Source: Muricea muricata (taxonomy: Eukaryota > Cnidaria > Anthozoa > Malacalcyonacea > Plexauridae). From it: a DNA stretch of 64,000 nt. The notes beneath the pieces were generated by a model. It ran no database searches. It saw only the letters and a program-made list of their open reading frames with translations, and was not told where the DNA came from. Shown here piece by piece: positions 13,221 to 51,577 of this stretch. The position numbers and the translations under genes were made by a program. Numbering within the stretch: position 1 is the first letter of the stretch; the number at the start of each line of letters is the position of its first letter. The DNA is taken from the NCBI GenBank assembly GCA_963855995.1, contig OY979730.1:9091300-9155299 (forward strand). Direction: 5' to 3'.

Positions 13221-13618
13221 TTGCTGAAACTATCGGCCGGTAAAGGATTGTGAAGCATATGCTTTCCGATTTATAGCGCCCCGGTGAAAAACAATTCTCA
13301 TAACAATTGAACACTCACTTCGAACGCAATTCACTAATCTATGATTAATTCTAATAAAAATTTTAATAGAATTTTTTTATCAGCCGGGTGTCCCAAACAA
13401 CTGCTCTTGGACTTGGTTTATATAACAGAAAAACTGTAGGATATAGTTATTACAGCCAACTAAATTGCATCTTATTCGGGAACACCTAACTTAAATTTTC
13501 ATATATCACAGTAAGGTTTTAATTGAATAGTTATTGAGATATCAAAACTTGAGCAAGCATTTTTGAGAATGCTATCAATTTGCAAAAAATGACCTGTCGG
13601 GTTTATGCCTTCACACAG

Positions 13619-20900: not shown

Positions 20901-23900
20901 GAAGAATTTCTGGCAAGATTTAATATAAATCAACAATACATAGACTCGACGAAACTTGTAGTTGAGTTGATAACAGTTCAATTAGATGAATGTTTGGATG
21001 AATTCAAGTTGTTCAAATCGTTCAAGATCGTGCTAGATCGTACAAGATCGGTTCGAACTAGAATGTAACAATTGAATAAACTAACTATAGTACGAGTATA
21101 CAATAATAGCACAAATATAAAGGAATATGTGACAATTTTAAAACAACAATCAACACGTACTAGATTATAACGCTATCTAATTAGTAACAACATGCAATAG
21201 TTAGCCAGACTGATTTTAGCAACGCGGATTCGAAACAGGAATTGAATTTTAGCATAATTTGGCATTTTAGCTTATATAACGTAACTTAACTAAGCTTGCG
21301 CAACTTAGCTACCACTAAACCATACCCAAACAAATTTAACTTGTCAAACACGAAATCGCGCACATACATTGCTGGCCTTTTAGCCGAAAGGCATAACTTA
21401 GTATGAACAATTCAAATGCTTAGACATGCACTAAAAAGAATAGAGCAAGGAACAGATATTATCTATGGACTTACTTTGGTTTGCAGACGCACCAATTTAA
21501 CTTTAGACTTTAGCGTAGATACAGCTTCTTCTTTTAAGCGTTCGCGTCGATGACTTGTTGCAGAATGAATTTTACGGACTAAGTTAGCTGTTTTTGCGCA
21601 AACACGCACCGGAATTTGACATAATCGAAAAATCAATGGTTTTCGCAACGGACGTAGCGCGGCTAGGCTAAGCAACCGCATTACGCATTTGGCTGGATGA
21701 AACGTGCTTCTAGTCGTGGGAAATTTACTTGTTTACGTGTTTTGCTAGCTAAATTTCGGCATTCGATAGGAACTGTTGGTTAACAGCAAAAAAATAACAA
21801 CTTGCTTGTTTACGTCAAAAATTGTCCAAGAACATCCTACAGTGTTTTGAATAATTTGCGTTTCGAAACCTACAGTAACGAACTTGTCAATTTGATCAAG
21901 TTCTGTCAAAATAAGGCTTGTTGCAACTTGTCATTTGCAAACTTGTTACAACTTGTTGAAACAGCTTACAGGGAGCCTACTATGAAATCTAGAATGCTTC
22001 GTTCTTTGGGTACAAGCTCTGTATAGTTGGTTATATGGTACTCTGACACGACCTCATTTGTATGTAAAGGATTAACTGACGAAATACGGAGCTGATTCCA
22101 TCTCTATTTTATTAATTCAGGTTTTTACCTATTTTGGTGATTTCCTCTTTCACTTCGGTGCACGCGGCTGCGCTCCTGGTCAGTTTAACGGCCCCACTGG
22201 TGTCTCAGTACTTCATGACGGCTCAATTGTTGTGTGCGACTGTTTGAACAATCGTGTTCAACTGTTCACAAGTGAAGGAGTTTTTGTTGCTATGTTTGGT
22301 TCTGAAGGGCGAGGCAATGGCCAGTTCTGGCGACCTATGGGAGTAGCTGTTGATAGCGAGAATAGGATCATCGTTGTTGATCAAGGTAAGTGTCAACAAT
22401 GTTTCCTGGTTTGTCCACCTACAGAAAGTATGGTTGGGAAGCAAAGTTTTATAGTTTGTACACCTTCAGGAAACATGGTTAGAAAACAATGTTTCCTGGT
22501 TTGTTCACCTTTAAGAAACATGGCTGGGAAACAGTGGGGCCATTTATACGAGCGAAAATAAGCCGCGGTTTAAATAAGTCGAGAACACTGCCTTTTATAC
22601 GCCAGTTTTACTAAATTTATTAAAATAGCCCCAAACACTCGTATAAATAGACCATAAGGAGGTCACCGAAGTTTTAAATACCCATTACCATGACAACAAA
22701 CAAAAAATGGCTCGCGTTAGAAAAAAAGCTACACGAAAGGCCTTGCTATTTTACTTTGGACTTGCCTTGGTCGCGAACGAAGCGTTTTTACGAGGTTTTC
22801 CAGCCTAAAATTGGCCGCGGCCAATTTAAGACGAGGTCCGAACCCTGGGCTAAAATTAGCCGCGGCTTATTTTAGCCGCAAAGAAATTGTACTTTTATAC
22901 AGACGTTCTCGATTTATTTTCGCTCGTATAAATGGCCCTAATGTTTCTTAGTTTGTCCACCTTCATCAATCATGGCTAGGAAACAATATATGCTTTCTGG
23001 TTTGCCCACTTCCAGGAAACATGACCAAGAAATAATGTTTCCTGGTTTGTCTTGTGGTACTTTTGAAGATGATTACTGGGGTGCGGTGAGTTTCTTGCAT
23101 AAAAAAACGGTTATCACTCAGACAATCAAGATGCCAAGAAACCTCATTATTGTTCATTTTATGATTAAAAGCACCGTAAGTAGATAATCCTCCCGAATAC
23201 CGGACATTCCCTACCATACATAGTTGTTGAATGTGCCTACAAATGGGGATGATCACCATATGAAGAGATGATTACCATATGAACCAGCTTAGCACGTCGT
23301 ATTACGTCATGTGTGTGCTAACAATCGACCCAAGTAAGGCAATCTTGAATCTGTAATTTGGCCTTTTCTCTGTTTTGAAATCCGTAATGTGAGCAGTGGA
23401 ATCCAGAATCCTGATACTTTGTAATTGTTGATGTCACTTTGTAATTCACGTAAGGTCTCGGGGTTATAACCCCCCCCCCCCCCTCCATAACGATATTGCC
23501 GAGAATCCTAGGAACGATGACGTAGCAACCGGTTAAATCGCGCGTGTGAAATTATTCAACTGCAGCGTCACGAGTACTGAGATCACGAGAAGCAGTGTGC
23601 TGGATACTGAAAGAGAGTTGTTTTACTTAAACTGTACAGAACACGACCAGATCATCTGAGCCAGGTATGAAAACATACTTTTGTTGATCATTGTAGGAAA
23701 GGTTATACTTGATCAACCTAGTCACAGACCTACATCTTGCTGTAAACTATATACAATGCAAAGTTGGCAATTTTTAGACGCAACCACCATTTCGAAATAA
23801 TTTCATTCTGTAATTGCCTTTTTATTGTCATGATCAAAGCGATCAACATACAATATACATGAGTGTCTATACTTATGGTGTACAATAAATATTTATATAT

Positions 23901-26900
23901 GTCCACATTTACGATACCTGTAAAGACTGAGATTTGAACAAATGAAACCATTCAACGTTAACTGAACGACGTGCACCCGCCTCCCCCGCATATTTTTAGA
24001 AATACTCTGATAGAATTCCAGGAGAAACAGTAATTCTAAATTTTATAAATTCAAAGAATTAAAATATCTTTCCATGAAAGTATAAATCTGTAAACGGATG
24101 GTGATTTTCGCAAAATGCAACTAAAATTCCGAGTAAATTCCTCATCAGCAATCTAGTCGTGAAATGTCATTGTGGGCGTTCGATTTTATTCATTTTAACT
24201 GCGACATGCAGGTAGGGTATTGTTGTGACTGTTTAAAGCCACTGAAGTGTCTGATGCGTAGCTCAGTATAACGAGAGTTGTATCGCAAACTGTATGAGGC
24301 ATATAGCTAATTTATATAGTCCTATGGTTTGTAGCGATAGAAAAAATGCATGCGGATTTCGATATGTTTTTGTGTCATTAGTCAATCATGGCCTATGGAG
24401 AAGTTATTGTGTGTGTATGCAAAAAGCATTCAGTTGTTAAAAATATGCGTATCCCGCCAGCAACTATATATGTCTGGTTTGAGGAAATAGTCAACAAACT
24501 GACTGATTTAGCAATAATCTATTTCAATTTGATTTTGTATTTTGCTTTAATCCGCAGTCATGGACGATTTGCAAGCAGGAATGGAAAATCTAAACCTAAC
24601 CACTGATAAGCACGAAATTAAAAAGGGCTTTGCACTGGTCATTATCAACGAAAAGTTCCGATACTATCGGGACTGTAATGGCGCTAGTGCTGACAAAGCA
24701 AATATAAAGAGATTTTGCGAGAAGGCTGGATTTACTGTTAATGAGATAGACAGCCTAAACCTAAACCCAAGTCAAATGAACGACCTAGAATTTAATAAGG
24801 ATGGCCTAAAGACAGACAACCTCACGAAACGACAAATGGAAACTCTTTTCAAAACTATTTCTAAAGGAAATTTTGAGGCTTATGATGCATTTATTTGTTT
24901 CATATCAAGTCATGGAAATAAAGGAGGGATTTTAGGAACTGATGGCGAGGTTATTCCCGTTGAAAAGATCGTTGATCAATTTAAGGCTAGTGAAGAATTT
25001 CCTTCTTTAATAAACAAACCTAAACTTTTCTTCAATCAGAATTGCAGAGGATTTCGGAAAGGAAAGGGAGTTGTTGCCGAGCTTGATGGTGGTAAAGACG
25101 ATGGACCTGAGGACCGTTGTGGAAGTGATGATGATGGAAGTGTTGGCGATGAATTTGATGATGAAAGTGATTATGATGATGAAAGTGACGACGAAGAAGA
25201 ATATGATAATGCGAATGTTCCTATGACTATTCCTACAACAGCTGATGTTTTGGTTGCGTATTCAACCGTTAATGGGTACAAATCTGTTAGAGATAAGAAA
25301 AGCGGGTCTTGGTTTATCACTGTGTTGACGCAGGTTTTTGAGAAGTATGCAGAAAACACGGATTTGACCGCCATGCTTGCTACAGTCAACAAAGTGGTTG
25401 CCACAAAGGAGCGAAAGAAGAAAGAGAAGTCAAAGGAGCCAGAGAAGCAAAACAAGTTTGAAATTGGTGAGAAACAAATGCCATGTTTTACCAGTACTTT
25501 GAGAAATCGTGTATACTTCAAGCTTACCCCAGGTTTAGAAGGATCGATTCTAAAAGAATCAAATGTGCATTCAGAAACTATACAATAAATGAATTATTGC
25601 ACGAAACGATTAACTACGTTGTTGAAATATGCTGGCTTGAGAAATGATGCAAAAATCGATGACATTACTACAGCTTTTTTGGGTCTTGAAAATGTATCTT
25701 TAAAAATTAATGTCAAATCGGATCATATAATTGAGGTTATTATCTGATAGACTGAAGTACAATTAATAGTTGTTTGATAAACGATATATAACTTGAAAAC
25801 ATTGACATTTGGACTTTCAAAAGTTGAAATATTATTGAAATATTGTTACTCAATTACAGTTAATAGTTTTTTTATATATGATAGTTTAAAATCATCGACA
25901 TTGAACTTTCTATAAGTTGAAATATTGTTATTGAATTTTATGCTCATGGTCATTATTTATAGGGATTGAAAATATTAAAACATTTTCTCTGGTTTCCATT
26001 ATGATTATTAGTAACTATCATGGACTTTCTTGTGCATTGTTAGACTGATAAGCAAACATTAAGATTTTCTTGCAAGAACATTGTGATTATATATGGGGGG
26101 GGGGGGGGGGATTGTATAAGGGGGTTCCTGATATTGAAAAATTTAACATCCAGTAAATGGGGGGGGGGGGATCTGTAACAGCTTGAGGATATTAATTAAA
26201 CACATGATGAGTATTCAAGCTAAAAAATCCAGAATGACCCAATAACTAATATCATATAAATAATATTCATGAAATAAACTGATATAGCCAAACATTAAGA
26301 TTTTCTTGCAACAACATTGTGAATATATATGGGGGGAGAGATTCATTATATAAGAGGTTGTCGACATTGAAAAATTTTACAACCAGCAAACGATTGTGAT
26401 TATTCAACTATCATGGACCTATATTTGCATTGTTAGACTGATAATAACCAAACATTAAGATTTTCTTGCAACAACATTGTGATTATATATGAGGGGATTC
26501 ATTATATATGAAGGTTGTCGATACTGAAAAGAATTAAAACCAGCAATATGAGGTGTTCGTCATATAAATTTGTTAAACTGATATAACCAAACTTTAAAGG
26601 TAGGTTACAGTCGCTTCTGCGCATGTGCGATAGGTTTGTTATCAATCTCGTTCCCCGAGCCTGCGATCCCTTGGGAAGGAAACGGAGGCTCTGGGACAAT
26701 CCGTGATCGGCATACAAAAAACTGTATGTCGTCCGTACTGCGCATGCGTTGGAAATAAATAGGTTCAATAAGCCGTAATTGCCAACCACTGAGCTATATT
26801 ACTGGAGAACTTGCCCCTATCTTCCTTCAGTCAAGCAAGTGAAGCCAAGAAAATGGCGGATTTTGGTCCTTGCTGATGCCATCTCCATGACAACTGGTCC

Positions 26901-29900
26901 ACTATTCTCATGCGAATTACCACTGACCAACCGCGATCCTAATGATTTCATAGACGCTTTCCCCTCCCGAAAACAAGTATAAATTTCAAATTTGCAGTTC
27001 AACAAATGGGTCAATTTTGTCTGGTGCATGGATGCCGTCGAAGAAAGACAAGAGAAAACGTTTCTTCTCACTGTGTTATAAAATTTATCTCTACAAAAAT
27101 GCCAAAGTATTGGATACTGGACGGAAATTTATCGTAAATATAAAGCCGCAAAACATGTAAGTTTTACCTCGAGTTTTACTATGTCTTATTTTAAAAATGT
27201 TTTTCCATAGTTTTATGCAGATACTTTAAACCAGTTTTACTATAAGTTAATAGCTGTTGAACTGGGTGAAGTGCAGTTTGTATAGGGAATTGCACGGTAC
27301 TACAAGAAATATTCAAAGTCGCTATAAATCGCTTTCTTTTGCTAACTTCAACACATGGTCCATGGTAGCAAACAAAACATAATGATCCCTGCTTGTCACA
27401 CTGTAAATCATGTATTTACACAACTGTAAACTGCACCCCATTTAATAGTCTGTCTCTTGCTATAATTGAAGATGTCATAATACAAATTCCCCTCATTCTA
27501 TCTAAGTGAATGTCTGCACCAATATCATTATTGATTTCAAAGTGAATAATGGCAAGACAACCAGAAATTGACCACATATCAGAGTTAAACTGGGTTAAAA
27601 TGCAGAGGCTACAATCTTACTATATATTCTCAGCTTTGTGATGAAGAGAAGTTTCATGTATATCTGCCAGCCCTATTTATAAGGGAATATCTGCCATTCT
27701 TGAAGCAAGATGGCCTACACTTCCAAGTTAATGGTTAAATCCTGCTGTAGTTAGATGTATATAAAGATCAAGCAAAATATATAAGGATGCATGCATACAA
27801 TTTAGCATGCATGCATACAATTTTGTACATTGTACACCAAAGTCTGCTAAAACCAATGAATTTCCTTTAGTAAAGTTGTTTGCCTACAAACTGACTGTCT
27901 GTAATTATCAGAATATGTAATACAAAATCTTTAAACCAAAAAAAAGTAACTATAAGGGTGTGCAAAGTTGGGGTGAGGGAAATCTAAAACCAAGTTTCCA
28001 GACTTTTCTATGAGTTATCTTGAAGGGGGGAGGGCCATAATTTTCAATTTCCTAATATAATTTCTTTGAGGAAATATGGAGCTTTTCAGCAAATACCCAA
28101 TGCAGTTTACTGCTAATAGTACACGAAATGTTTGCCTTTATTATTGAATATTTTTATTGCTTTTGGTAGGAAAGAATAAGATTGAGATATTGACAGGGGA
28201 TGAACAAAGTGGCATGTCTCATGGTTCAGTGCAAATAATATTAACAAATCATGTTTGTGGAAGGTTATTAGAGAGACATCTGACAGACAATGGAGAAATG
28301 TTATTTATTTTTTTATTTGTTATGTATATAAATATATACATTCAAGCTTTAGTAGAAATTTGCAATAGTTAATAATTGCTTTTGAATATGAATAATGTAT
28401 ATTTAAAATATATAAATATGAAAGTGTAATAAAATTCATGAACTGTAGTTTGCAACTTCTTTTTCAACCAAATTGGTAATGATCAATGGAACATGGATCT
28501 AAAAAAATACAGAGAACATACAAGAAATTTAAACTCCAAGGGAAAGGTAATTATGCATGCATGCATGTACATGAAACACACAACATTGCCATGCAGGGTT
28601 TTAGCAAGGCCAATGGGAATTGATAAAGCACAATACATAGGGTAATTTAGTAAAGGTATTTTAGGCCTAACTATGAATCATGAAATAAGAAGAAAATGAG
28701 AATGAGATTCTGAAAGCATCCAGTAAAAATTAAACCAGCAATTGCATACACACTCTTACATATTCACTCAATACAAAATATCTGTATGTATAAACTGTGC
28801 CAGTTTGATTGGATGCAACAAGTCAAAGTATATCTAAGAATAGTAAACACCCCAAAGATACAAGTCTTCACAGTCATACTAGTAGCTGGTCCAAATAATT
28901 TAAAACACATACAAATTTATACAGTAAAAAAAGTGATAGTTCATACTGATGCACAAAATACACTGCTTGTTACTACTGTTGCTTTAATTAATTGAGCAAC
29001 TCCTCATATTAAAAGCCTTACACATATTTCGTGAGACTCGGGTCCCGCATTTCAATAGCCATGAATAATAATTGCACATAAAAAATGATGACTTGAAAGA
29101 TATTAGATGAGAAAAAGCATGCAGACATTGGTATAATTAATATACACTATACAGAAAGCCGGCAAAACCCTGTGTTTCAGTATAGTGTCTGTACAAAATT
29201 GGCATTTAGAAAACTTGTGACTGGTTTTTGAATAAGACCTAGGTGTCTATACCATGGTACCAATGTCATAATAGTCTCAGATGTAAAAGAAAATATTAAA
29301 AACATGACAAAACACGCACCTTCAATATGACATGAAAACTTGAAGATGCCAGAAAACAATCTTGCTCCTAAATTTTACTCGCAAACTTCTTGCCGTGTAA
29401 ATGATTTATGGATCTATAACTTGGGTTTTTTTACAGAAATGGTTTATCACTTATAAAATTTTTGAAAAGAACAACGCCAAAGTGCTAAACCAGCTTCGTT
29501 GAAACAAAAACTAGAAATTATAGACAAAACCAGGGGGGTTGAAAATAGTAGCGGGCTCAAGAAACGAGCCTGGTCAGTGGTAATTCGCATGAGAATAGTG
29601 GACCAGTTGTCATGGAGATGACATCAGCAAGGACCAGTGAACTCTAATACAACTGGAACGATAACTTGGCCGCCATCTTTGAAGCCAAATTGAAGGCCGC
29701 CATGTACGTCACGCCGCGAAAATATGACCTATTTTCAAAAGCTCTTTTCGACCCTTTAACTTCGTGTTTTAGAGCCAGTTAGGTGCTAAATATTTTCTAG
29801 ATAGATTGAAATTTCATGTACCTCAACTTTCTAGGACGTCCAGTAAGGTTTTAAAATATTTTTTGGCTGCTAAAAATGAAAAACAGTTCCGGCGAAAACT

Positions 29901-41900: not shown

Positions 41901-44900
41901 ATGCACTTGACTGGCTGAGAAAATGCTAATAACGTGCGTAATGCGACATGCGCGGCTTCAAAAACTTCAAAGGTTCCGACGCGAGTGGCCCTTCTATGTA
42001 TTCTTATTCTATGCTTCATACAATGTCTTTCACCCTTAATTAGGCTTAATTAGGTTAAATTTGTGTTGAGTGTGTGCAAACTACCCAGACTGAAAAGTTC
42101 TATTTTGGGCATAAAAGATCCTTTTCACCAGAGAATTTTGTGCAGAAATGTAGAAAACTTCTAGAGTCTAATCAGGTGGTCTGGGTTCAGTTTGGTTGAT
42201 GACCCTCAGACTCAGTAAATAAATTTATCATTATCAATATTGAGCACAGTTGGCAGGTTAGCCTAGATTTTCTGATGATTTGTGCAGATTTCTTCATGAA
42301 TTATTAATGATTTTATAATCACGACTAATTGTTCATTGGAATATAGCAAATGGGCATTAGAATATTGCTTTACCATACTCGCATGTTTGCAGACTTTGCT
42401 CCAATGTTGCACAAGCTAGCAAGCAGGTGCGCGTTGCATTCTATGTATAGTGTATGCAAAAGTATGGCAAAGTATGCCAAAGTTTACCATTATGTTAATT
42501 TTGAAGTAAACATATAGTTTAAACTTACCAACGTTTTCCAATATTTTCCATTAGTCGTTGAAATATAGTGATTAAAGTTTTCAAAACAAGCTTTACGCTT
42601 TATACTAGTTAGATGGTTGCATCCGTGGTTATATATACCATTTTTCGGAAGTAAAACATACCACAGCACCGGCGTACGCCATATTAAAGAACTGAAGAAT
42701 TCAGTCTCATTGAAAGTCTGACGTTTTGATTGTTCGTGGTTCCTTAAAGATCTCAATATAATCAGGAATGTGATTTTGCGAACATGAAACCGACATACGG
42801 AATTTTACGTGGCTACCCACAAAAACCACAAAACTCTTATACTTTTCTTCGTAGGTTTATATGTAGCCATCACTTAGATTACTGTAATGTAATAAATTAT
42901 GCACGTATTTCTTATATGAAAATAATTAACATGCTCATGGTGCATAATTCACTTTTTAACGTAATTTATGAAGATAACACCACAAACACTAACAATAATG
43001 TGTAACAATATCACAATAATGTGATCACTAATATAATAATGACTTTCACTTACCAGGTCGAGCTTGTGCTCCAGTTAATTTCACAAACAATGTTTTCTGG
43101 TTTGTCCACCTTCAGGAAACATGGCTAGGAAACAGTGTTTCTTGGTTTGTCCACCTTCAGGAAACATGGCTAAGAAACAATGTTTCCAGGTTTGTCCACC
43201 ATCAGGAAACATGGCTAGGAAACAATGTTTCATAGTTTTTCAACCCTCAGGAAATATGGCTAGAAAACAATGTTTCCTGTTTTGTCCACCTGAGGGAAAC
43301 ATAGCTAGAAAAAATGTTTCCTGGTTTGTCTTGTGGTACCATTGAGGATGATTACTTGGGTGTGGTCGGTTTCTTTCACATAAAAACGGTTATCACTAAG
43401 ACGACCAAGATGCCAAGAAACTTCAAAATTGTTCATTTTTTATGACAAAAAGCATCGTAAGTAGAAAATCTTTCCAAATAGCGGACATTCTCTACCATAC
43501 ACATTCGTTAAATGTGCGTACAAGTGGGCCAATGCCGCGAAGAGATGATACCGTGTGAATTAGCTTAGCACGTCGTATTACGTCATGTGTGTGCTAACAA
43601 TCGACCCAAGTAAGGCAATCTGGAATTTGTAATCCGGCCTTTTCTCTGTTCTGAAATCCGTAATCTGAGCAATGGAATCCAGAATCCTAATACTTCGTCA
43701 CTTTTTCACAATTCACGTAAGGTCTTTCATGGTTGTAACTCCCTAACGATATTCCTGAGAATCTCTGGGAACAACGATGACGTAGCAACCGGTTAGAACG
43801 TGCGTGTGAAATTATTCAACTGCAGTGTCACGAGTACTGAGATCACGAGAAGCAGTGTTCTGGATATTGAAAGAGAGTTGTTTTGCTTAAACTGTACAGA
43901 ACACGACCAGATCATCTGGACCAGGTATGAAACATACTCTTGTTGATCATTGTAGGAAAGGTTATCCTTGACCAACATACAGACCTACATCTTGCTGTAA
44001 ATTATATTCAATGCAAAGTTTGCAATTTTTAGACGCAACCACCATTTCGAAATAATTTTAATCCGTAATTGCCTTTTTATCATCATGACCAAAGAGATTA
44101 ACATAGTAATATACATGAGTGTCTACTGTATACTTATGGTATACAACAAATATTTACATATGTCTATATCTACGTACCTATGTAAAGAATGAGATTTCAA
44201 TAAATGAAACCATTCAACGTTCACTGAACAACGTGCACCCGCCTCCCCCGCATATTTTTAGAAGTACTCTGATAAAATTCTGGGAGAAACAGTAATTATT
44301 GAAATTCAAAGAATTAATATATTTTTCCTGGGAAGTATAAATCTGTCAATGAATGGTGATTTTCGCAAAATGTAACTAAAATTCCGAGTTAATTCCTCAT
44401 CAGCAATCCTAGTCGTGAAATGTCAATGTGGGCGTTTAATTTTATTCAATTTAATTGCGACATCCAGGTAGGGTATTGCTGTGACTGTTTAAAGCCACTG
44501 AAGTGTCTGATGCGTAGCTCAGTATAACGAGAGTTCTATGGCAAACTGTATGTGGCACATAGCTAATTTATGTAGTCCTAAGGTTTGTAGCTATAGAAAA
44601 AATTGCGAGGATGCGTGCGGATTTCGATATGCGGCTTTGTCATTAGCCAATCATGGCCTGTGGAGAAGTTATTGTGTGCGTATGCAAAAAGCATTGAGTT
44701 GTTAAAAATATGCGTATCCCGCCAGCAACTATGTATGTCTGGTTTGATGAACTAGCCAACAAACTGACTGATTTAGCAATAATCTATTTCAATTTAATTT
44801 TGTATTTTGCTTTAATCCGCAGTCATGGACGATTTGCAAGCAGGAATGGAAAATCTAAACCTAACCACTGATGAGCACGAAATTAAAAATGGCTTTGCAC

Positions 44901-47900
44901 TGGTCATTGTCAACGAAAAGTTCCGATACCATTCACACCGTAAAGGCGCAGGTGCTGACAGAGCAAATATAAAGAGATTTTGCGAGAAGGCTGGATTTAC
45001 TGTTAATGAGATCGACAGCCTAAACCTAAACCAAAGTCAAATCGACGACCTAGAATTTGATACGAATGGCCTAAAGACAGACAATCTCACGAAACAACAA
45101 ATGGAAACCCTTTTCAAGACCATTTCTAAAGGAAATTTCGAGGATTAATTGTAATCCGGCCTTTTCTCTGTTCTGAAATCCGTAATCTGAGCAATGGAAT
45201 CCAGAATCCTAATACTTCGTCACTTTTTCACAATTCACGTAAGGTCTTTCATGGTTGTAACTCCCTAACGATATTCCTGAGAATCTCTGGGAACAACGAT
45301 GACGTAGCAACCGGTTAAATCGTGCGTGTGAAATTATTCAACTGCAGTGTCACGAGTACTGAGATCACGAGAAGCAGTGTTCTGGATATTGAAAGAGAGT
45401 TGTTTTGCTTAAACTGTACAGAACACGACCAGATCATCTGGACCAGGTATGAAACATACTCTTGTTGATCATTGTAGGAAAGGTTATCCTTGACCAACAT
45501 ACAGACCTACATCTTGCTGTAAATTATATTCAATGCAAAGTTTGCAATTTTTAGACGCAACCACCATTTCGAAATAATTTTAATCCGTAATTGCCTTTTT
45601 ATCATCATGACCAAAGAGATTAACATAGTAATATACATGAGTGTCTACTGTATACTTATGGTATACAACAAATATTTACATATGTCTATATCTACGTACC
45701 TATGTAAAGAATGAGATTTCAATAAATGAAACCATTCAACGTTAACTGAACAACGTGCACCCGCCTCCCCCGCATATTTTTAGAAGTACTCTGATAAAAT
45801 TCTGGGAGAAACAGTAATTATTGAAATTCAAAGAATTAATATATTTTTCCTGGGAAGTATAAATCTGTCAATGAATGGTGATTTTCGCAAAATGTAACTA
45901 AAATTCCGAGTTAATTCCTCATCAGCAATCCTAGTCGTGAAATGTCAATGTGGGCGTTTAATTTTATTCAATTTAATTGCGACATCCAGGTAGGGTATTG
46001 CTGTGACTGTTTAAAGCCACTGAAGTGTCTGATGCGTAGCTCAGTATAACGAGAGTTCTATGGCAAACTGTATGTGGCACATAGCTAATTTATGTAGTCC
46101 TAAGGTTTGTAGCTATAGAAAAAATTGCGAGGATGCGTGCGGATTTCGATATGCGGCTTTGTCATTAGCCAATCATGGCCTGTGGAGAAGTTATTGTGTG
46201 CGTATGCAAAAAGCATTGAGTTGTTAAAAATATGCGTATCCCGCCAGCAACTATGTATGTCTGGTTTGATGAACTAGCCAACAAACTGACTGATTTAGCA
46301 ATAATCTATTTCAATTTAATTTTGTATTTTGCTTTAATCCGCAGTCATGGACGATTTGCAAGCAGGAATGGAAAATCTAAACCTAACCACTGATGAGCAC
46401 GAAATTAAAAATGGCTTTGCACTGGTCATTGTCAACGAAAAGTTCCGATACCATTCACACCGTAAAGGCGCAGGTGCTGACAGAGCAAATATAAAGAGAT
46501 TTTGCGAGAAGGCTGGATTTACTGTTAATGAGATCGACAGCCTAAACCTAAACCAAAGTCAAATCGACGACCTAGAATTTGATACGAATGGCCTAAAGAC
46601 AGACAATCTCACGAAACAACAAATGGAAACCCTTTTCAAGACCATTTCTAAAGGAAATTTCGAGGATTATGATGCATTTATTTGTTTCATATCAAGTCAT
46701 GGAAATAAAGGAGGGATTTTAGGAACTGATGGTCAGCTTATTTCCGTTACAAGCATCGTTAAAAAATTTAAGGCTAGTGAAGAATTTCCCTCTTTAATAA
46801 ACAAACCTAAACTTTTCTTCAATCAGAATTGCAGAGGACTTCGGACAGGAAAGGGAGTTGTTGTCGAGCATGATGGTGGTAAAGACGATGGACCTGAGGA
46901 CCGTTGTGGAAGTGATGATGATGGAAGTGTTGGCGATGAATTTGATGATGAAAGTGATTACGATGATGAAAGTGACGACGAAGAAGAATATGATAATGCG
47001 AATGTTCCTATGACTATTCCTACAACAGCGGATGTTTTGATTGCGTATTCAACCGTTAATGGGTACAAATCTGTTAGAGATAAGAAAAGCGGGTCTTGGT
47101 TTATCACTGTGTTGACGCAGGTTTTTGAGAAGTATGCAAAAAACACGGATTTGACCGACATGCTTGCTACAGTCAACAAAGTGGTTGCCACAAAGGAGCG
47201 AAAGAAGAAAGAGAAGTCAAAGGAGCCAGAGAAGCAAAACAAGTTTGAAATTGGTGAGAAACAAATGCCATGTTTTACCAGTACTTTGAGAAGTCGTGTA
47301 TACTTCAAGTATACCCCAGGTTTAGAAGGATCGATTCTAAAAGAATCAACTGCGCATTCAGAAACTATACAATAAATGAATTATTGTACGAAACGATTAA
47401 CTACGACAGTCCAGTTTTACATTTTGCTGCAATTTTACTTCAAGAATCCTCTTGATGAATTAAAAACCACAAAACTCTTACTTTTTCTTCGTAGGTTTAT
47501 ATGTAACCATCATTTAAATTACTGTAATGTAATAAATTATGCACGTATTTCTCATGGTGCATAATTCACTTTTTAACTTAATTGATGAAGATAACACCAC
47601 AAACACTAACAATAATGTATAACAATATAATAATGTGATCACTGATATAGTAATGACTTTCACTTACCTGGTCGAGCTTTTGCTTCAGATAATTTCACAA
47701 ACAATGTTTCTTGGTTTGTCCACCTTAAGGAAACATGGCTAGAAAACAATATTTCCTGGTTTTTCTACGTTCAGGAAACATGGCTAGAAAACAATGTTTC
47801 CTGGTATGACCACCGTCGTGAAACATGGCTAGGAAACAATGTTTCCTGGTATGTCCACCTTCAGGAAACATGGCTACGAAAAAATGTTTCCTGGTTTGCC

Positions 47901-50900
47901 CACCTTCATCAATCATGTCTAGGAATCAATGTTTTCTAGTTTGTCCACTTCCAGGAAACATGACTAAGAAATGATGTTTCCTGGTTTGTCTTGTGGTACC
48001 ATTGAAGATGATTACTAGGGTGTGGTCGATTTCTTTCATATAAAAACGGTTATCACTAAGACGATCAAGATGCCAAGAAACCTCATTATTGTTTATTTTG
48101 TGATGAAAAGCACATAATCCTCCCAAATAGGGCACATTGTCTACCCTACATATTCGTTGAATCTGCCTACAACGGAGCATTGGCGCGAAGAGATGATTAC
48201 CGTATGAATTAGCTTAGCACGTCGTATTAGGTCATGTGTGTGCTAACGATCGACCCAAGTAAGGCAATCTGGAATTTGTAATCCGGCCTTTACTCTGTTT
48301 TGAAATCCGTAATCTGAGCAATGGAATCCAGAATCCTAATACTTCGTCACTTCGGGTCTCTCATGGTTATAACACACCCCCCCCCCCCCCATAACAATAT
48401 TGCCGAGAAACCCTGGGAACGATAACTTAGCAACCGGTTAAATCGTGCGTGTGAAATTATTCAGCTGCCGCGTCACGAGTACTGAGATCACGAAATGCAG
48501 TGTGCTGGATATTGAAAGAGAGTTGTTTTGCTTAAACTATACAGAACACGACCAGATCATCTGAGTCAGGTATGAAACATACTTTTGTTGACCATTGTAG
48601 GAAAGGTTATACTTGACCAACCTAGTCACAGACCTACAACTTGCTGTAAATTATATTCAATGCAACGTTGGCGATGTTTAGATGCAACCACAATTTCGAA
48701 ATAATTTTAATCCGTAATTGCCTTTTTATTATCATGACCAAAGAGATCAACATAGTAATATACATGAGTGTCTACTGTATACTTATGGTATACAATAAAT
48801 ATTGATATATGTCTATATCTACGATGCTTATGTAAAAACTGAGATTTCAATAAATGAAACCATTCAACGTTAACTGAGCGACGTACACCCGCCTCCCCCG
48901 CATATTTTTAGAAGTATTCTGATAGAATTCTGGAAGAAACAGTAATTATTGAAATTCAAAGAATTAATATATGTTTCCTGGGAAGTATAACTCTGTAAAT
49001 GAATGGTGATTTTCGCAAAATGTAACTAAAATTCCGAGTAGATTCCTCATCAGCAGCATGTGGGCGTTTAATTTTATTCATTTTAACTGCGACATGGAGG
49101 TAGGGTATTGCTGTGACTGTTTAAAGCCACTGAAGTGCATGATGCGTAGCTCACTCGTTAAAATAAAGAGTTGTATCGCAAACTGTATGTAGCGTATAGC
49201 TACTTTATGTAGTCCTATGGTTTGTAGTGATAGAAAAATTTGCCACGATACATGCGGATTTCGATATGTTTTCGTGTCATCAGTCAATCATGGCCTATGG
49301 AGAAGTTATTGTGTGCGTATGCAAAAAGCATTCAGTTGTTAAAAATATGCGTATCCCGCCAGCAACTATATGTGTCTGGTTTGAGGAAATAGTCAACAAA
49401 CTGACTGATTTAGCAATAACCTATTTCAATTTGATTTTGTATTTTACTTTAATCTGCAGTCATGGATGATTTGCAAGCAGGAATGGAAAATCTAAACCTA
49501 ACCACTGATGTGCACGAAATTAAAAATGGCTTTGCACTGGTCGTCGTCAACGAAAAGTTCCGACACCATTCACACCGTAAATGCGCAGGTGCTGACAGAG
49601 CAAATATAAAGAGATTTTGCGAGAAAGCTGGATTTACTGTCAATGAGATCGACAGCCTAAACCTAAACCCAAGTCAAATAAACGACCTAGAATTTAATAA
49701 GGATGGCCTAAAGACCGACAACCTCACGAAACGACAAATGGAAACTCTTTTCAAAACTATTTCTAAAGGAAATTTTGAGGCTTATGATGCATTTATTTGT
49801 TTCATATCAAGTCATGGAAACGAAGGAGGGATTTTAGGAACTGATGGTCAGGTTATTCCCGTTGAAGAGATCGTTGATCAATTTAAGGCCAGTAGAAAAT
49901 TTCCTTACTTAATAAACAAACCTAAACTTTTCTTCACTCAGAATTGCAGAGGACCCCTGAAAGGAGAGGGAATTGTTGCCGAGCTTGATGGTGATAAAGA
50001 CGATGGACGTGAGAACGGTGTTGGAACTGATCATGATGAAACTGTTGGCGATGAATTTGGTGATGAAAGTGATGACGATGATGAAAGTGATGACGAAGAA
50101 GGATATGATGACGCAAATATTCCTAAGACTATTCCTTCAACAGCTGATGTTTTGCTTGCCTATTCAACCGTTAATCGGTACAAATCTGTTAAAGATAGGA
50201 AAAGCGGGTCTTGGTTTATCACTGTGTTGACGCATGTTTTTGAGAAGTATGCAAAAATCATGGACTTGATCGACATGCTTGCTACAGTCAACATAGAGGT
50301 TGCCAAAAAGCAAAAGTTGTCTAAATTTGGTAGGAAAGAAATGTCGTGTTTTAGCAGCTCTTTGAGAAAACGAGTATACTTCAAAATGGCCGAAGGACGT
50401 TCAAGTTTAGAAGAATCGGTTCCAGAAGAATCAACTGCGCATTCAGACAATATACTATAAATGAATTATTGCACGAAAAGATTAACTTCGACAGTTCAGC
50501 AATTTTACATTTTGTTGTAATTTTACTTCAAGAACCCTCTTGATAAATTAAAAACCACAAAACACTTACCTTTTCTTCGCAGGTTTATATGTAACCATAA
50601 TTTATTTTGTAGTGTAATAAATTATGCACGTATTTTTTATGTGAAAATAATTAACATGCTCATGTGCATGATTCACTTTTTAACACCATAAACACTAACA
50701 ATAATGCATAACAATTTGACAATAATGTGATAACTAATATGCTATTTCGAAATACGCCATTTTGTGGACACAAAATCTTTACTGAATTATTATTTCTATA
50801 GTTTTATATTGCAGTTTTCCTGAATAGAAATATATTATTATTGTAAACTTTATATTTTCTTGTTCTTTAAAACATTTATAATTGGTGGAAAACAGGCTTT

Positions 50901-51577
50901 AGGGCAGGGGTGGATTTTCTGAGAGGGGGGGGGGCGCCGACAACAGTGGCAGGAGGTGAACAAAGTCCGTCAGGTACTTGGTAGCGCACCAATGCACCCC
51001 TAACAAAATCTGCACGCCTCTTGTCAGATGAGAGTTAATCCCCCCGTGCTTTAGGGTACAAGGAATATTCACGGTGTAGGTATTTTTTCTTTTCTAATTG
51101 TTCGATTTCTTTTCCCATGCAGGTAACAACAGGGTGCAAGTGTTCAACAGCGAGGGGGAATTCCAGTTTACTTTTGGCAAACTTGGTAAATGGGATGGCG
51201 AAATAAGCTGTCCAAATTTTGTCGCTATCGACAAAGAAGACAATATTTACATTTCAGACGAAGTAAACATGAGAATTCAGATATTTCGCCGCGACGGAAG
51301 TTACCTGAGAAAAATATCAGCCAAGGAAATCCACGGTTTCCAAGGCAACATCGAACATTTGTCCGGTATAGCAGTCGATGCACGAGGCAATGTTATTGTT
51401 GGTATGAAAAGCAGCTGCAGTGCACGAGTTTTTTCACCGGATGGCCGGTTCCTACGTGCTTTTTCCTCTGCACGAGCTTGTCCATCCCGGGTACTGTTCG
51501 CTTCCGGCATTGCACTAACTTCGGCAGGGGAAATTGTCGTTTCTGATTGGTTTAATAATAGGATTCGATTCTTCTGA
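14962..51577 (+). CDS. TRIM-NHL protein: RING, two B-boxes, coiled coil, six NHL repeats
   Basis: Probable E3 ubiquitin ligase with an NHL beta-propeller for RNA or protein binding. Exons inferred: 14962-15573, 16641-16865, 18290-18551, 19297-19476, 20604-20698, 22121-22385, 51123-51577; the sum, 2094 nt, is 697 codons plus stop and all phases agree. RING: C16, C19, C31, H33, C36, C39, C52, C55. B-box 1 about residues 89-131, B-box 2 about 146-186. Exon 2 is charged and helical (coiled coil). Exons 5-7 give six NHL blades, from GEFQHPCDIAV to SDWFNNRIRFF, a complete propeller. No filamin domain is visible between coiled coil and NHL, unlike TRIM2, TRIM3 and TRIM71. The donor at 19477 (gtcggc) is weak, so exon 4's end is less sure. 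Intron 6 is 28.7 kb and hosts the caspase-like genes. Confidence 0.85.
15830..15967. repeat. Dispersed repeat related to 2944-3178
   Basis: Carries ttctactaaaataattagat with tactcgctc and an inverted gagctcgtaatctaattgtt at the other end. Same family as the ACSS-intron copy. It lies in TRIM intron 1; the rest of that intron (15970-16640) shows nothing I can name. Confidence 0.5.
16920..17260. repeat. CAAC/GTTG-rich repeat block
   Basis: Words such as gttgtacaacattgtacaac, caagttgtaacaag and gttgtcaacagcttg repeat in both directions. It follows TRIM exon 2 and is directly followed by the dispersed repeat at 17264. Confidence 0.6.
17264..17533. repeat. Dispersed repeat, copy 2 (other copy 631-936)
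   Basis: Same sequence family and same orientation as 631-936, including aagtttcaacaagtttcgca and the closing cggtcagatcatctag. In TRIM intron 2, non-coding. Confidence 0.6.
17655..17857 (+). mobile_element. hAT-type MITE with GTAACATC target duplication
   Basis: Ends are CAGTGGTGGATCCAG and CTAGATCCGCCACTG, inverted. The 8-bp GTAACATC lies directly on both sides (17647-17654 and 17858-17865), as expected of hAT transposition. Internally aagtcaaaataaatta is mirrored at the other end. A second, inverted copy is at 60932-61134. No transposase. Confidence 0.85.
18098..18181 (-). repeat. tRNA-derived SINE head or tRNA pseudogene
   Basis: Read on the minus strand it starts ggctcgccagctcaattggt with an A-box-like stretch and then agttcaaatccctc as the B box. 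The anticodon stem and acceptor stem do not pair, so it is not a working tRNA gene. In TRIM intron 2. Confidence 0.55.
18637..18760 (+). repeat. SINE, 5'-truncated copy
   Basis: Begins with a B-box-like ttcgattccc and then shares gtcaggcatatttttcagct, aatataaactcagagtaaca and cattttcacc with the fuller copy 190 bp downstream. It starts inside TRIM intron 3, shortly after exon 3. Confidence 0.6.
18829..19010 (+). repeat. tRNA-derived SINE
   Basis: The head cttgcccattggcagagcat with ggtcgtaggttcgattcccg has A- and B-box spacing of a tRNA. The tail gtcaggcatattttttagct and atataaactcagagtaacac is shared with the truncated copy at 18637, which defines it as a repeated family rather than a tRNA gene. 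Confidence 0.7.
19570..19890. repeat. CAAC/GTTG-rich repeat block
   Basis: Dense degenerate words (tgttgtcaacaacttgcc, caacaaccattgttcaca, gaacaactattgatcg) in both directions, following TRIM exon 4. ORFs across it are an artefact of the repeat. Confidence 0.6.
20700..20840. repeat. CAAC/GTTG-rich repeat block
   Basis: Starts right after TRIM exon 5 and contains caacttgtaacatgtctgtt, caacaggcttgttatcaac and caacaagttgtaac. Short member of the same scattered family. Confidence 0.5.
21475..21681 (-). CDS. Possible first coding exon of a minus-strand gene
   Basis: An ATG at 21681 opens 69 codons that end at a strong splice donor, aaa|gtaagt, read on the minus strand. The peptide (MRLLSLAALRPLRKPLIFR then more arginine and lysine, few acids at first) looks like a mitochondrial targeting sequence followed by a basic segment. 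I do not recognise it and could not find a following exon in 20700-21470. It lies in TRIM intron 5, antisense. It may belong to a mobile element or be a chance ORF. Confidence 0.25.
21790..21985. repeat. CAAC/GTTG-rich repeat block
   Basis: Words such as cttgttgcaacttgtc and cttgttacaacttgttg repeat here ahead of TRIM exon 6. Same scattered family as the block at 4567. Confidence 0.5.
22391..23050 (+). repeat. 45-bp minisatellite of caspase module A, split by a MITE
   Basis: Units read roughly caggaaacatggctaggaaa then caatgtttcctggtttgtcc. Copies lie at 22391-22535 and 22939-23050, separated by the MITE at 22537-22938. The array starts six bases after the TRIM exon 6 donor. The same minisatellite precedes the caspase copies at 43088 and 47697. 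Confidence 0.85.
22537..22938. mobile_element. MITE inserted in the minisatellite (GGGCCATTTATACGAG ends)
   Basis: Left end gggccatttatacgagcga and right end tcgctcgtataaatggccc are inverted copies. It breaks the minisatellite between two units, which shows it is younger than the array. About 400 bp; internal aagccgcgg and ccgcggctta words. No transposase. Confidence 0.75.
23290..24557 (+). promoter_or_regulatory. Conserved upstream region of caspase copy A, with probable 5' UTR intron
   Basis: About 1.3-1.5 kb here is shared with the regions before the other caspase copies. It includes attacgtcat at 23301-23310, a CRE-like word. A likely non-coding exon ends at 23664 (ccag|gtatga), and a pyrimidine-led acceptor at 24556-24557 leaves only TC before the caspase ATG, so I infer a 5' UTR intron 23665-24557. 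A short ORF at 24388 within it is broken by TGA in two other copies. Confidence 0.5.
24560..25588 (+). CDS. Caspase-like cysteine protease, copy A, 342 aa
   Basis: Peptidase family C14, single coding exon, no CARD or DED prodomain (only about 20 residues precede the p20 core). p20: GFALVIINEKF at 23-33, catalytic His118 in SSHGNKGGILGTDG, catalytic Cys162 in QNCRG (usually QACRG). A strongly acidic linker follows at about 176-219 (Asp/Glu runs, DDESDYDDESDDEEEYDN). p10: AYSTVNGYKSVRDKKSGSWF at 233-252, then a lysine-rich insert and LRNRVYFK. Odd: at the position of the conserved p20 arginine that binds the substrate aspartate (R-x-G) this copy has Cys39, whereas the others keep Arg39. The stop codon lies within AATAAA. 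It sits in TRIM intron 6, same strand. Start chosen for the shared MDDLQAGMENLNL beginning. Confidence 0.88.
   Translation: MDDLQAGMENLNLTTDKHEIKKGFALVIINEKFRYYRDCNGASADKANIKRFCEKAGFTVNEIDSLNLNPSQMNDLEFNKDGLKTDNLTKRQMETLFKTISKGNFEAYDAFICFISSHGNKGGILGTDGEVIPVEKIVDQFKASEEFPSLINKPKLFFNQNCRGFRKGKGVVAELDGGKDDGPEDRCGSDDDGSVGDEFDDESDYDDESDDEEEYDNANVPMTIPTTADVLVAYSTVNGYKSVRDKKSGSWFITVLTQVFEKYAENTDLTAMLATVNKVVATKERKKKEKSKEPEKQNKFEIGEKQMPCFTSTLRNRVYFKLTPGLEGSILKESNVHSETIQ
25589..25747 (+). CDS. 52-aa ORF directly after caspase copy A
   Basis: ATG follows the caspase stop immediately. The first eight residues (MNYCTKRL) come from sequence shared with the other caspase copies; after about 25612 the DNA diverges and reads LKYAGLRNDAKIDD... 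to a stop at 25747. No domain is recognised and the other copies do not keep it. It may be a fragment of another gene brought by recombination, or chance. Confidence 0.2.
   Translation: MNYCTKRLTTLLKYAGLRNDAKIDDITTAFLGLENVSLKINVKSDHIIEVII
26040..26590 (+). repeat. Degenerate tandem array with G-runs, left part
   Basis: Units carry aaacattaagattttcttgc, caacattgtgattatatatg and a run of G (up to about 16). The same array resumes at 37692-38000, so the intervening 11 kb is an insertion. Unit length varies, roughly 150-190 bp. Confidence 0.75.
27001..27157 (+). pseudogene. Degenerate THAP-like zinc-finger exon
   Basis: An acceptor (tttgcag) precedes ATG at about 27006 and a strong donor, cat|gtaagt, ends the exon. 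The frame starts MGQFCLVHGCRRRK, a C-x4-C start like THAP domains. After about 14 codons the similarity moves to another frame (RFFSLCYKI... LDTGRKF...NIK), which fits the second half of such domains. A frameshift therefore breaks it. THAP domains are found in transposases of Kolobok and P type. Assignment is by pattern only. Confidence 0.3.
29635..30563. mobile_element. hAT-type non-autonomous element, 929 bp
   Basis: Ends are CAGTGAACTCTAATACAACT and its inverted copy, continuing through ggaacgataact. The 8-bp GCAAGGAC flanks both sides (29627-29634, 30564-30571). Excision restores the arm of the surrounding element, which reads ggtccttgctgatg in the other arm at about 26867. No ORF of note. 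Confidence 0.9.
30648..31349. mobile_element. 702-bp element with AACACCGCGG inverted ends
   Basis: Left end aacaccgcggaaaaacgtct and right end agacgtttttccgcggtgtt are exact inverted copies, extending through gcgcatgcg. It follows directly on the right arm of the compound element; the shared flank is only ttgcc. A 129-codon ORF inside (30851-31240) lacks an ATG start and has no recognised domain. Confidence 0.7.
31414..33238 (+). pseudogene. RecQ-family DNA helicase, broken
   Basis: ATG at 31414 (MSVKNINIFHSVLDEALE). Motif I: LPTGYGKSLIYQL; motif Ia: IIVISPLNDQITKL; motif II: VVDEAHLVEEW. A 510-bp intron (31893-32402) separates motif II from EFRPWY and AMTVTATLK (motif III region). After a one-frame jump at about 32899 come DINNIRRVIHIGVP and EAGRCGRDGLPA (motifs V and VI). 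Two lesions: an in-frame TAG at 31747-31749 between motifs Ia and II, and the frameshift before motif V. A small hairpin (gccagcctgacaattt and inverse, 33160-33290) then cuts the C-terminal region. RecQ zinc-binding and HRDC parts are not seen. It is cargo of the TTAA element. Confidence 0.85.
33936..35067 (-). pseudogene. Inverted copy of the RecQ helicase 5' half
   Basis: Mirror image of 31359-32490; paired positions add up to 66426 at every landmark I checked, so there is no net indel between arms. Frame from ATG at 35012 through motif I to the same in-frame stop, then motif II, and the same intron (34533-34024). It ends just after the TVTA motif. The single replacement I noted is SQYEAVKA here against SQYEPVKA in the other arm. 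The shared stop means the lesion predates, or has been copied between, the arms. Confidence 0.85.
35206..37649. mobile_element. 2.4-kb foldback element, arms about 640-730 bp
   Basis: From gtttgttatgaggagcctc the left arm (to about 35850 and again 36065-36150) returns inverted at 36945-37645, ending gaggctcctcataacaaac. The left arm has an extra 200 bp (35855-36065). The unpaired centre is 36150-36945 and shows no transposase. It interrupts the right arm of the RecQ element, since the left arm of that element reads through from gtttgttat to caatctcg. Confidence 0.75.
37692..38060 (+). repeat. Degenerate tandem array with G-runs, right part
   Basis: Continues the array broken at 26590: aagattttcttgcgacattg, gattatatatggggg and further diverged units. 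Ends in a stretch matching 26185-26275 (gaggatattaaacac, gaatggcccaataacta). Confidence 0.7.
38428..38822 (+). repeat. Direct copy of the inner segment of the 39.1-42.5 kb inverted repeat
   Basis: About 395 bp from ataaatccaagatggcgcgg through cttgatttgtgcggtgtgtg. The same segment is inverted at about 39610-39992 and direct again at 41265-41655. Its 91-codon and 61-codon ORFs are kept among copies only because the DNA is nearly identical; no domain is recognised. Confidence 0.7.
40005..41191. mobile_element. Foldback element with 18-bp repeats in its ends, AGGTCACG target duplication
   Basis: Starts cgggtcgggataaaacgctg, ends cagcgttttatcctgacccc; arms reach about 290 bp. Each arm carries four or five copies of an 18-bp unit, gggataaaacgctgaaat. 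The 8-bp AGGTCACG flanks both sides (39997-40004, 41192-41199). Centre 40300-40900 has no convincing gene. Confidence 0.85.
41790..42013 (+). mobile_element. MITE, CATAGAATAAG ends, CTTCATAC target duplication
   Basis: Ends CATAGAATAAG and CTTATTCTATG are inverted, with tagaagggccactc next to them. CTTCATAC flanks both sides (41782-41789, 42014-42021). The other arm of the host foldback, at about 39497-39513, shows the uninterrupted site. An older relative is at 5459-5651. Confidence 0.92.
42525..43087. other. Left block of caspase module B
   Basis: 42822-43087 (from accacaaaactctta to aatttcacaaacaatg) recurs at 47463-47700 and 50551-50740, and so marks the start of each caspase module. 42525-42820 is unique with nothing recognisable. 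Confidence 0.6.
43088..43335 (+). repeat. 45-bp minisatellite of caspase module B, about 5 units
   Basis: The unit caggaaacatggctaggaaa plus caatgtttcctggtttgtcc recurs at 45-bp steps. Because 45 is a multiple of three, the plus strand stays open and would read repeated MARKQCFLVCPPSGN-like peptides; I do not treat that as coding. Confidence 0.88.
43627..46670 (+). repeat. 1522-bp tandem duplication
   Basis: 43627-45148 and 45149-46670 are nearly identical: landmarks such as the caspase ATG (44825 and 46347) lie exactly 1522 bp apart and I noticed only about three base differences. The junction at 45147-45150 joins gaggatta of the caspase frame to attgtaatccgg of the upstream region. Confidence 0.92.
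44825..45148 (+). pseudogene. Truncated caspase-like copy B, 107 aa
   Basis: Identical to copy C over 107 codons (MDDLQAGMENLNL to KGNFED) and then stopped by TAA that is created by the duplication junction. It keeps the p20 beta-strand GFALVIVNEKF and Arg39 but lacks the catalytic His and Cys and all of p10, so it cannot be a protease. Its full upstream region, with minisatellite and CRE-like word (43577-43586), is intact, so it may be transcribed. It could act only as a fragment, if at all. Confidence 0.85.
46347..47375 (+). CDS. Caspase-like cysteine protease, copy C, 342 aa
   Basis: Closest to copy A. Catalytic His118 (SSHGNKGG) and Cys162 (QNCRG) are present. The two arginines expected to bind the substrate aspartate are both there: Arg39 in HRKGAGAD and Arg244 in YKSVRDKKSGSWF. 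It is the only copy in the window with the full set. The same acidic linker (DDESDYDDESDDEEEYDN) joins p20 and p10, and the C-terminal tail is LKESTAHSETIQ. Its upstream region begins inside the 1522-bp duplication, so it lacks its own minisatellite and CRE-like word; these lie before copy B. A pyrimidine-rich acceptor ends two bases before the ATG, as in the other copies. The stop overlaps AATAAA. Confidence 0.9.
   Translation: MDDLQAGMENLNLTTDEHEIKNGFALVIVNEKFRYHSHRKGAGADRANIKRFCEKAGFTVNEIDSLNLNQSQIDDLEFDTNGLKTDNLTKQQMETLFKTISKGNFEDYDAFICFISSHGNKGGILGTDGQLISVTSIVKKFKASEEFPSLINKPKLFFNQNCRGLRTGKGVVVEHDGGKDDGPEDRCGSDDDGSVGDEFDDESDYDDESDDEEEYDNANVPMTIPTTADVLIAYSTVNGYKSVRDKKSGSWFITVLTQVFEKYAKNTDLTDMLATVNKVVATKERKKKEKSKEPEKQNKFEIGEKQMPCFTSTLRSRVYFKYTPGLEGSILKESTAHSETIQ
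47697..47985 (+). repeat. 45-bp minisatellite of caspase module D, about 6 units
   Basis: Same unit as at 43088 and 22391 (ggaaacatggctagaaaaca, tgtttcctggt). Followed by ttgtcttgtggtaccattga, which closes the array in all modules. Confidence 0.88.
49462..50460 (+). CDS. Caspase-like cysteine protease, copy D, 332 aa
   Basis: Most diverged copy. His118 (SSHGNEGG) and Cys162 (TQNCRG) are kept, as is Arg39, but the glycine of the R-x-G motif is Cys41 (HRKCAGAD) and the p10 arginine is Lys244 (YKSVKDRKSGSWF). The acidic linker is present (DDDDESDDEEGYDD). The lysine-rich insert near 285-300 is about ten residues shorter than in A and C, explaining the length. The upstream module is complete, except that the CRE-like word reads attaggtcat at 48225-48234. 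The end is ctataaatg rather than caataaatg, so the AATAAA at the stop is lost. Possibly altered in activity; still open throughout. Confidence 0.88.
   Translation: MDDLQAGMENLNLTTDVHEIKNGFALVVVNEKFRHHSHRKCAGADRANIKRFCEKAGFTVNEIDSLNLNPSQINDLEFNKDGLKTDNLTKRQMETLFKTISKGNFEAYDAFICFISSHGNEGGILGTDGQVIPVEEIVDQFKASRKFPYLINKPKLFFTQNCRGPLKGEGIVAELDGDKDDGRENGVGTDHDETVGDEFGDESDDDDESDDEEGYDDANIPKTIPSTADVLLAYSTVNRYKSVKDRKSGSWFITVLTHVFEKYAKIMDLIDMLATVNIEVAKKQKLSKFGRKEMSCFSSSLRKRVYFKMAEGRSSLEESVPEESTAHSDNIL
50461..51122. other. Remnant of a further caspase module and end of TRIM intron 6
   Basis: 50551-50740 repeats the left block of modules B and D (accacaaaacacttacc, aataaattatgcacgtattt), then similarity stops without a minisatellite or caspase. 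A G-run lies at about 50923-50934. The TRIM acceptor follows at 51121. Confidence 0.6.
51123..51577 (+). CDS. Last exon of the TRIM-NHL gene (rest of NHL blades 3-6)
   Basis: Listed separately because it lies 28.7 kb from the previous exon. Acceptor at 51121-51122. The first bases complete the glycine codon begun at 22385, giving VVDQ joined to GNNRVQVF, a canonical NHL strand split by the intron. Four blades follow: GEISCPNFVAI, LSGIAVDARGNVIV, and a final SGIALTSAGEIVVSDW with stop at 51575-51577. The exact phase match and restored six-blade count are the reason I join it to the 5' exons rather than call a separate gene. Confidence 0.85.

Follow-up and report, generated by a model that had tools for sequence, protein, structure and literature searches.

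This locus raises two questions: how did a group of caspase-like genes come to lie in one intron of a TRIM-NHL gene, and are the host and its guests used as separate genes or as one? Both were addressed in a 64,000-bp stretch of DNA (the window) of the octocoral Muricea muricata, which covers bases 9,091,300-9,155,299 of contig C15 in an assembly of 453 Mb and 74 contigs. The GC content of the window is 37.1%; the assembly of the gorgonian Eunicella cavolini is described as 490 Mb in size with 37.3% GC (PMC12759274). We consider it probable that the caspases form an array that grew locally within the intron, that its copies exchanged sequence by gene conversion, and that they are transcribed independently while the host transcript is spliced around them. 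The features on which this reading is built are listed in Table 1.

Table 1. Features of the TRIM-NHL host gene and of the array in its sixth intron (positions are those of the window).
Feature	Position	Strand	Details
TRIM-NHL host gene, 7 coding exons	14962-51577	+	open 721-aa frame; GT-AG, phase-matched splice sites
TRIM-NHL exon 1	14962-15573	+	encodes RING, B-box
TRIM-NHL exon 2	16641-16865	+	
TRIM-NHL exon 3	18290-18551	+	
TRIM-NHL exon 4	19297-19548	+	
TRIM-NHL exon 5	20604-20698	+	
TRIM-NHL exon 6	22121-22385	+	
TRIM-NHL intron 6	22386-51122	+	28,737 bp
TRIM-NHL exon 7	51123-51577	+	
45-bp minisatellite	22395-22536	+	starts at tenth base of intron 6
Short MITE-like insert	22536-22943		inverted ends GGGCCATTTATACGAGCGAAAATAA; splits unit A minisatellite
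Duplication unit A	22940-25618	+	upstream DNA, 5′ exon, caspase A
Caspase A	24560-25588	+	342 aa; PF00656 E 2.5e-48
Transposable-element pile, several young	25619-42820		between caspase A and its 3′ tail
Duplication unit B	42821-47461		
Tail A	42821-43034		3′ tail of unit A
Same 45-bp minisatellite, before unit B	about 43041-43330		
1,522-bp tandem duplication	43627-46670	+	halves 43627-45148 and 45149-46670
Caspase fragment	44825-45148	+	107 codons, ends at duplication junction; PF00656 E 4.5e-06
Caspase B	46347-47375	+	342 aa; PF00656 E 8.6e-47
Duplication unit C	47462-50740		
Same 45-bp minisatellite, before unit C	about 47655-48021		
Caspase C	49462-50460	+	332 aa; PF00656 E 1.1e-43

The first five introns of the host gene were found to measure 745-1,424 bp, compared with 28,737 bp for the sixth. 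The donor of exon 6 (22385/gtaagt) and the acceptor of exon 7 (cag/51123) join in phase 1 to give ...IIVVDQ-GNNRVQVF..., and the seven-exon model translates into 721 aa without a stop. This protein matched the Pfam profiles of NHL repeats (E 1.8e-32; 110.1 bits, cut-off 20) and RING_UBOX (28.2 bits, cut-off 25.2), in agreement with the proposal of the first-pass annotation that the host is a ubiquitin-ligase-type gene, here a TRIM-NHL of the RING E3 type. The B-box scored 24.9 bits in the exon 1 open reading frame (ORF) against a cut-off of 24.1 and 22.9 bits, slightly below it, in the full protein, while the coiled coil between the B-box and NHL parts was represented by a weak PML_CC match (18.4 bits, under the cut-off of 23). 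Six NHL blades were counted in the translation and the exon 6/7 junction fell inside blade 3; the earlier claim that the codon split at 22385/51123 rejoins VVDQ-GNNRVQ within a six-blade propeller was thus borne out by the phase-1 junction and the open frame. The nearest PDB entry to the NHL part was TRIM71 (E 2.1e-72). The host gene resembles the TRIM71/TRIM2/TRIM3 type in its RING, B-box, and six-blade NHL propeller. A filamin domain is expected between the coiled coil and NHL parts of that type; however, no Pfam match to this domain was detected in the host protein at E 0.01, and a linker encoded by exons 3 and 4 was found there instead. The DNA ahead of the TRIM gene holds plus-strand exons of an AMP-binding enzyme (4111-11336; presumably acetyl-CoA-synthetase-like) and a 122-bp inverted pair at 12980-13225 (97% complementary, 2-bp gap), and downstream of the gene a SAM-domain exon was located on the minus strand (55438-55863).

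We also considered whether a 5′ TRIM gene and a 3′ NHL gene had been joined by the assembly, or the array falsely duplicated, and judge this to be the least probable of the readings weighed. Two repeats inside intron 6 could accompany such an error: a 1,522-bp tandem repeat whose halves are 99.8% identical, and an inverted pair of 1,143 bp with arms more than 99% alike. The inverted pair, however, belongs to a mobile element that is present in many copies, with paired arms at many other loci as well, and the UTR introns of units A, B, and C are 8-9% different from one another, so that haplotype duplicates are unlikely. The window includes no N, and the phase-1 junction completes both blade 3 and the count of six blades; as judged by sequence, the locus is genuine and well assembled. 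Exon 7 lacks a separate start (no in-frame Met was found upstream of its acceptor) and a second partner exon was not detected in the window, such that two separate TRIM genes were rejected. When the window was searched by tblastn with the host protein and the ORFs of three other NHL loci, of which only those of one locus (L011) matched in the window, no further NHL-coding stretch was detected in intron 6. The other NHL places in the genome matched the host protein at no more than 50% identity, and because several of them aligned unbroken across the position of intron 6 (e.g., C2:51431890-51432420, query 5-187), this position is probably not common to the other NHL loci, a comparison to be read with the caution that repeats can align out of register.

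Intron 6 had been described as holding four caspase-like copies; the same-strand nested array stands, and the count was revised to three full genes and a 107-aa fragment. In all three full caspases the PF00656 match runs from profile position 1 or 2 to the last of the 233, and in the fragment, which is dead, it covers positions 2-59. No CARD or DED prodomain was detected by Pfam in the nested caspases, the C14 domain occurring alone, and caspase-3, -9, and -7 were found as PDB neighbours among the best 60 of 158 matches. AlphaFold modelling of caspase B from a 3-row alignment of the nested copies gave a mean pLDDT of 31.9, and the caspase fold was assigned from sequence. The catalytic His (SSHG) and Cys (QNCRG) are kept in caspases A, B, and C. 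At the three positions of the P1-Asp (S1) pocket, whose Arg/Gln/Arg we take to be R64, Q161, and R207 of caspase-3, the residues are C/Q/R in A, R/Q/R in B, and R/Q/K in C; that is, caspase A has a Cys at the first S1-Arg position (TGT compared with CGT in B), caspase C has a Lys at the second, and of the three full copies only B has an intact pocket. The linker from CRG to p10 was 61 residues long in the nested caspases with 24-25 acidic residues, compared with 20-38 residues and 1-7 acidic in 19 of the 21 other aligned rows; in the distant rows L021 and L032 the linkers were of 55 residues (8 acidic) and 53 residues (6 acidic), respectively. From these residues, caspase B, and probably caspase C too, would be an active short-prodomain caspase whose acidic p20-p10 linker is unusually long, and caspase A is probably weakened by the loss of its S1 arginine and the displacement of its 3′ tail.

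The array was next examined for its mode of growth. Units A, B, and C lie head-to-tail, and the same 45-bp minisatellite precedes each of them. The 1,209 bp of upstream DNA of unit A had four matches in the whole genome including itself, all of them in intron 6, with the three others 86-88% identical to it; this agrees with the earlier statement that the copies share upstream DNA, identifies the caspase expansion as a local array, and led us to reject genome-wide wandering of the nested unit. Of the earlier description as a young local expansion, 'local' is thus upheld by four of four matches, while 'young' is relative, given that identity between the UTR introns of units A, B, and C is 91-92%. 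Nesting, gene structure, duplication, mosaicism, frame preservation, and the catalytic and pocket residues can be read directly from the DNA. The proposed history is one of amplification in place, in which a unit headed by the minisatellite would have been duplicated in tandem. More recent changes were superimposed on these units. The halves of the 1,522-bp tandem duplication differ at 4 bases (99.8% identical), the last base being among them, and this duplication is, as read at its junction, what produced the 107-codon fragment. This duplication and several of the intron transposons are much younger than the unit duplications.

Transposons account for the break in unit A, whose alignment stops at 25618 and resumes at about 42821, with 17.2 kb of transposon-rich DNA in between. 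Within this DNA, (i) a 929-bp repeat (29635-30563) was found in at least 33 other copies at 99-100% identity across chromosomes, indicative of an element with very recent movement; (ii) a 2.85-kb stretch (26786-29636) had at least 6 other long copies at 94-99%; and (iii) a 1.04-kb stretch (38381-39422) had at least 36 other copies at 95-99%; in each of these searches, 40 of 2,287-5,199 candidates were scored. The mobile element at 31350-35076 has 1,143-bp inverted arms more than 99% alike and coding pieces that resemble RecQ/DEAD helicases; at least 14 other long matches to it (about 2 kb or more, 92-99%), many with paired arms, were identified among the 40 of 2,584 candidates scored.

The origin of the nested unit was examined by comparison with the caspases elsewhere in the genome. 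Caspase A had at least 113 genomic matches, including the four in the window; outside C15, most of them lay in clusters on C1, C7, and C8. Examination of 24 loci outside the window yielded 25 caspase-like ORFs, of which 21 were used in a tree; L030, a fragment of 187 aa, both pieces of the split gene L033, and L034, an ORF lacking the p10 half, were left out. The nested copies formed one clade (100/99) among single-exon relatives, and a fork with support of 80/84 joined them with C1 and C7 groups, the branching order among which is not resolved. In the C1 relatives, reading by eye placed an acceptor in a similar position just ahead of the main exon, so the 5′ intron is shared by the family. 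This speaks against retroposition as the way in which the nested caspase entered intron 6, and a duplication at the DNA level that carried the 5′ intron along is most likely. A member of an octocoral family of small caspases, with one main coding exon and a 5′ intron, would in this manner have arrived in intron 6 of the TRIM-NHL gene.

Features that favour separate transcription were found with each copy. In all four, a conserved 5′ exon with the donor CAG/gtatga is followed by a UTR intron of 890-898 bp and an acceptor 2 bases before the ATG (in caspase A, the 5′ exon ends at 23664, the UTR intron is 893 bp, and the acceptor is 24557/24558). In the main frame the 5′ exon does not code: a stop in that frame occurs 39 nt ahead of the ATG in four of four copies, and no in-frame ATG was present in any of them within the 150 nt examined upstream of the start; in the last 120 nt, an upstream ATG was found in copy C alone and was out of frame. 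Poly(A)-signal words occur at 47371, 47459, and 47531 for caspase B and at 50547 and 50616 for caspase C, while tail A carries AATAAA at 42891 and other AATAAA/ATTAAA words are at 25584 and from 25974 onward. A 5′ exon and UTR intron in every copy, together with the poly(A) signals close to B and C, favour separate transcription, and the nested caspases are most likely separate transcription units. Their own promoters, which we infer to lie ahead of the conserved 5′ non-coding exon, would probably drive them independently of the host gene, and the host transcript would splice intron 6 out around them.

Chimeric use of the locus, with the exon 6 donor of TRIM spliced to a caspase acceptor or with read-through from the host promoter driving the caspases, appears improbable. 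The caspases are on the strand of their host, the junction ...IIVVDQ-V-MDDLQ... is in frame without an internal stop at four of four caspase acceptors, and human tandem nested genes and L1s are reported to induce host exonization, intron retention, and cryptic polyadenylation (PMC3192792). However, agreement in frame between exon 6 and a caspase has a 1-in-3 chance, and since all four acceptors go back to one by duplication, the four of four counts as a single such event; furthermore, a conserved 5′ exon with its donor accompanies every copy, and a TRIM-caspase fusion would cut the NHL propeller short. We regard as somewhat less probable still that the locus would make in-frame RING-TRIM-caspase fusions beside the separate proteins, providing a caspase recruited by a ubiquitin ligase. 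Such a predicted fusion would join RING, B-box, coiled coil, and partial NHL to a caspase in three versions of 904-914 codons including the stop. Retention of intron 6 would instead add 58 residues, ending at a stop at 22559-22561, with less than half of the propeller left.

Whether the array is maintained was examined through its pattern of substitution. Omega over the whole coding region was 0.87 (A-B), 0.81 (A-C), and 0.77 (B-C), close to neutral, and was 0.96-1.43 from codon 111 on; by these estimates the nested caspase proteins evolve fast. Values near 1 are compatible with relaxed constraint or decay, and it is possible, though rather unlikely, that most of the array is in decay, with the intron serving as a passive landing place for caspases that are relaxed or partly pseudogenised and have no selected function. 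The truncation of one copy would fit such a view, as would the Cys in the S1 pocket of copy A, the movement of its 3′ tail by transposons, and the Lys in copy C; yet the catalytic His and Cys are retained in three of three full copies, and omega for codons 1-110 between B and C was 0.24 (11 non-synonymous and 11 synonymous changes). The three full ORFs also have no stop and no frame-shifting indel (0, 0, and 0 in 1,029-1,038 coding columns for A-B, A-C, and B-C), whereas 11, 10, and 4 such indels, respectively, were found in 1,221-1,234 non-coding columns of the flanks; these three pairwise comparisons overlap and are not independent. The sole coding indels, of 39 and 9 bases, are in frame and both set C apart. 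Along the caspases, the order of site sharing was B-C, then A-C, then A-B: the 134 informative coding sites fell in 43 runs (none of 20,000 shuffles had as few), while the 150 informative non-coding sites fell in 88 runs and were more weakly patchy (330 of 20,000 shuffles had as few). Such a mosaic is what gene conversion would give, and the caspase copies probably exchange sequence in this way.

A nested gene is one whose entire coding sequence lies within the bounds of a larger gene (PMC3786989), a definition that fits the three full caspase ORFs inside intron 6. Nested genes make up about 6% of Drosophila genes, as exemplified by 2mit in tim2 (PMC3786989), and a human example is KTI12 in TXNDC12 (PMC3192792). 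The present locus is like these in having whole coding sequences in an intron of an unrelated host, but differs in that the guests are a same-strand tandem family of three genes and a fragment; known nested genes are frequently in the direction opposite to their host (PMC3786989). The coral Acropora millepora is described as having diverse caspases, including the double-domain caspase-X and some domains without active-site residues (PMC4715348), a diverse anthozoan repertoire comparable to the present one; the octocoral copies, by contrast, are single-domain, have a single main exon, and carry the long acidic linker. The main text of the Acropora study does not use the word 'intron' (PMC4715348), and no description of a caspase array in a TRIM intron was found among the titles and openings of abstracts listed in literature searches. 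The locus is a tidy and unusual example of phenomena, nested genes and anthozoan caspase expansions, that are both already well known. It offers a clean natural case of a protease family growing on the same strand within an intron of an E3-ligase-type gene, on which the tolerance of a host gene for inner transcription units could be tested, and gives a checkable prediction in the form of in-frame TRIM-caspase chimeras.

The locus also points to a large, fast-evolving family of octocoral single-exon caspases, some of which are without the classic aspartate pocket. Eight of the 21 other caspases, all on C1 (L016, L020, L022, L023, L026, L027, L029, and L031), have lost all three P1-Asp pocket residues, which are replaced by Leu, then Asp, Asn, or Ser, and then a residue other than Arg, while the catalytic His and Cys are kept. 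Four of these (L020, L022, L029, and L031) carry DSCRG, in which an Asp lies two residues before the catalytic Cys, as in metacaspases and MALT1. This combination suggests a switch in P1 specificity, perhaps to Arg/Lys, and the pocket-less C1 caspases are possibly of more interest than the nested array. On the same contig, caspase matches of equal score spaced about 8.2 kb apart (C1:96504417-96573556) are probably a tandem array.

In the same assembly, contig C74 (19,292 bp) was identified as the mitochondrial genome by its cox1 and, by Pfam, its cob, cox2, atp6, and cox3 genes, with cox2-atp6-cox3 on the strand opposite cox1. A 986-aa MutS-HNH gene was also detected on it (MutS_V E 2.7e-33 and HNH E 5.6e-06 by Pfam); a mitochondrial mutS is a hallmark of Octocorallia, which places the source of the assembly in this group. 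A search for the GFP family yielded one degenerate match. A second cox1 match, interrupted by one TAA, was found on a nuclear chromosome (C1:38414782-38416095) and is probably a NUMT.
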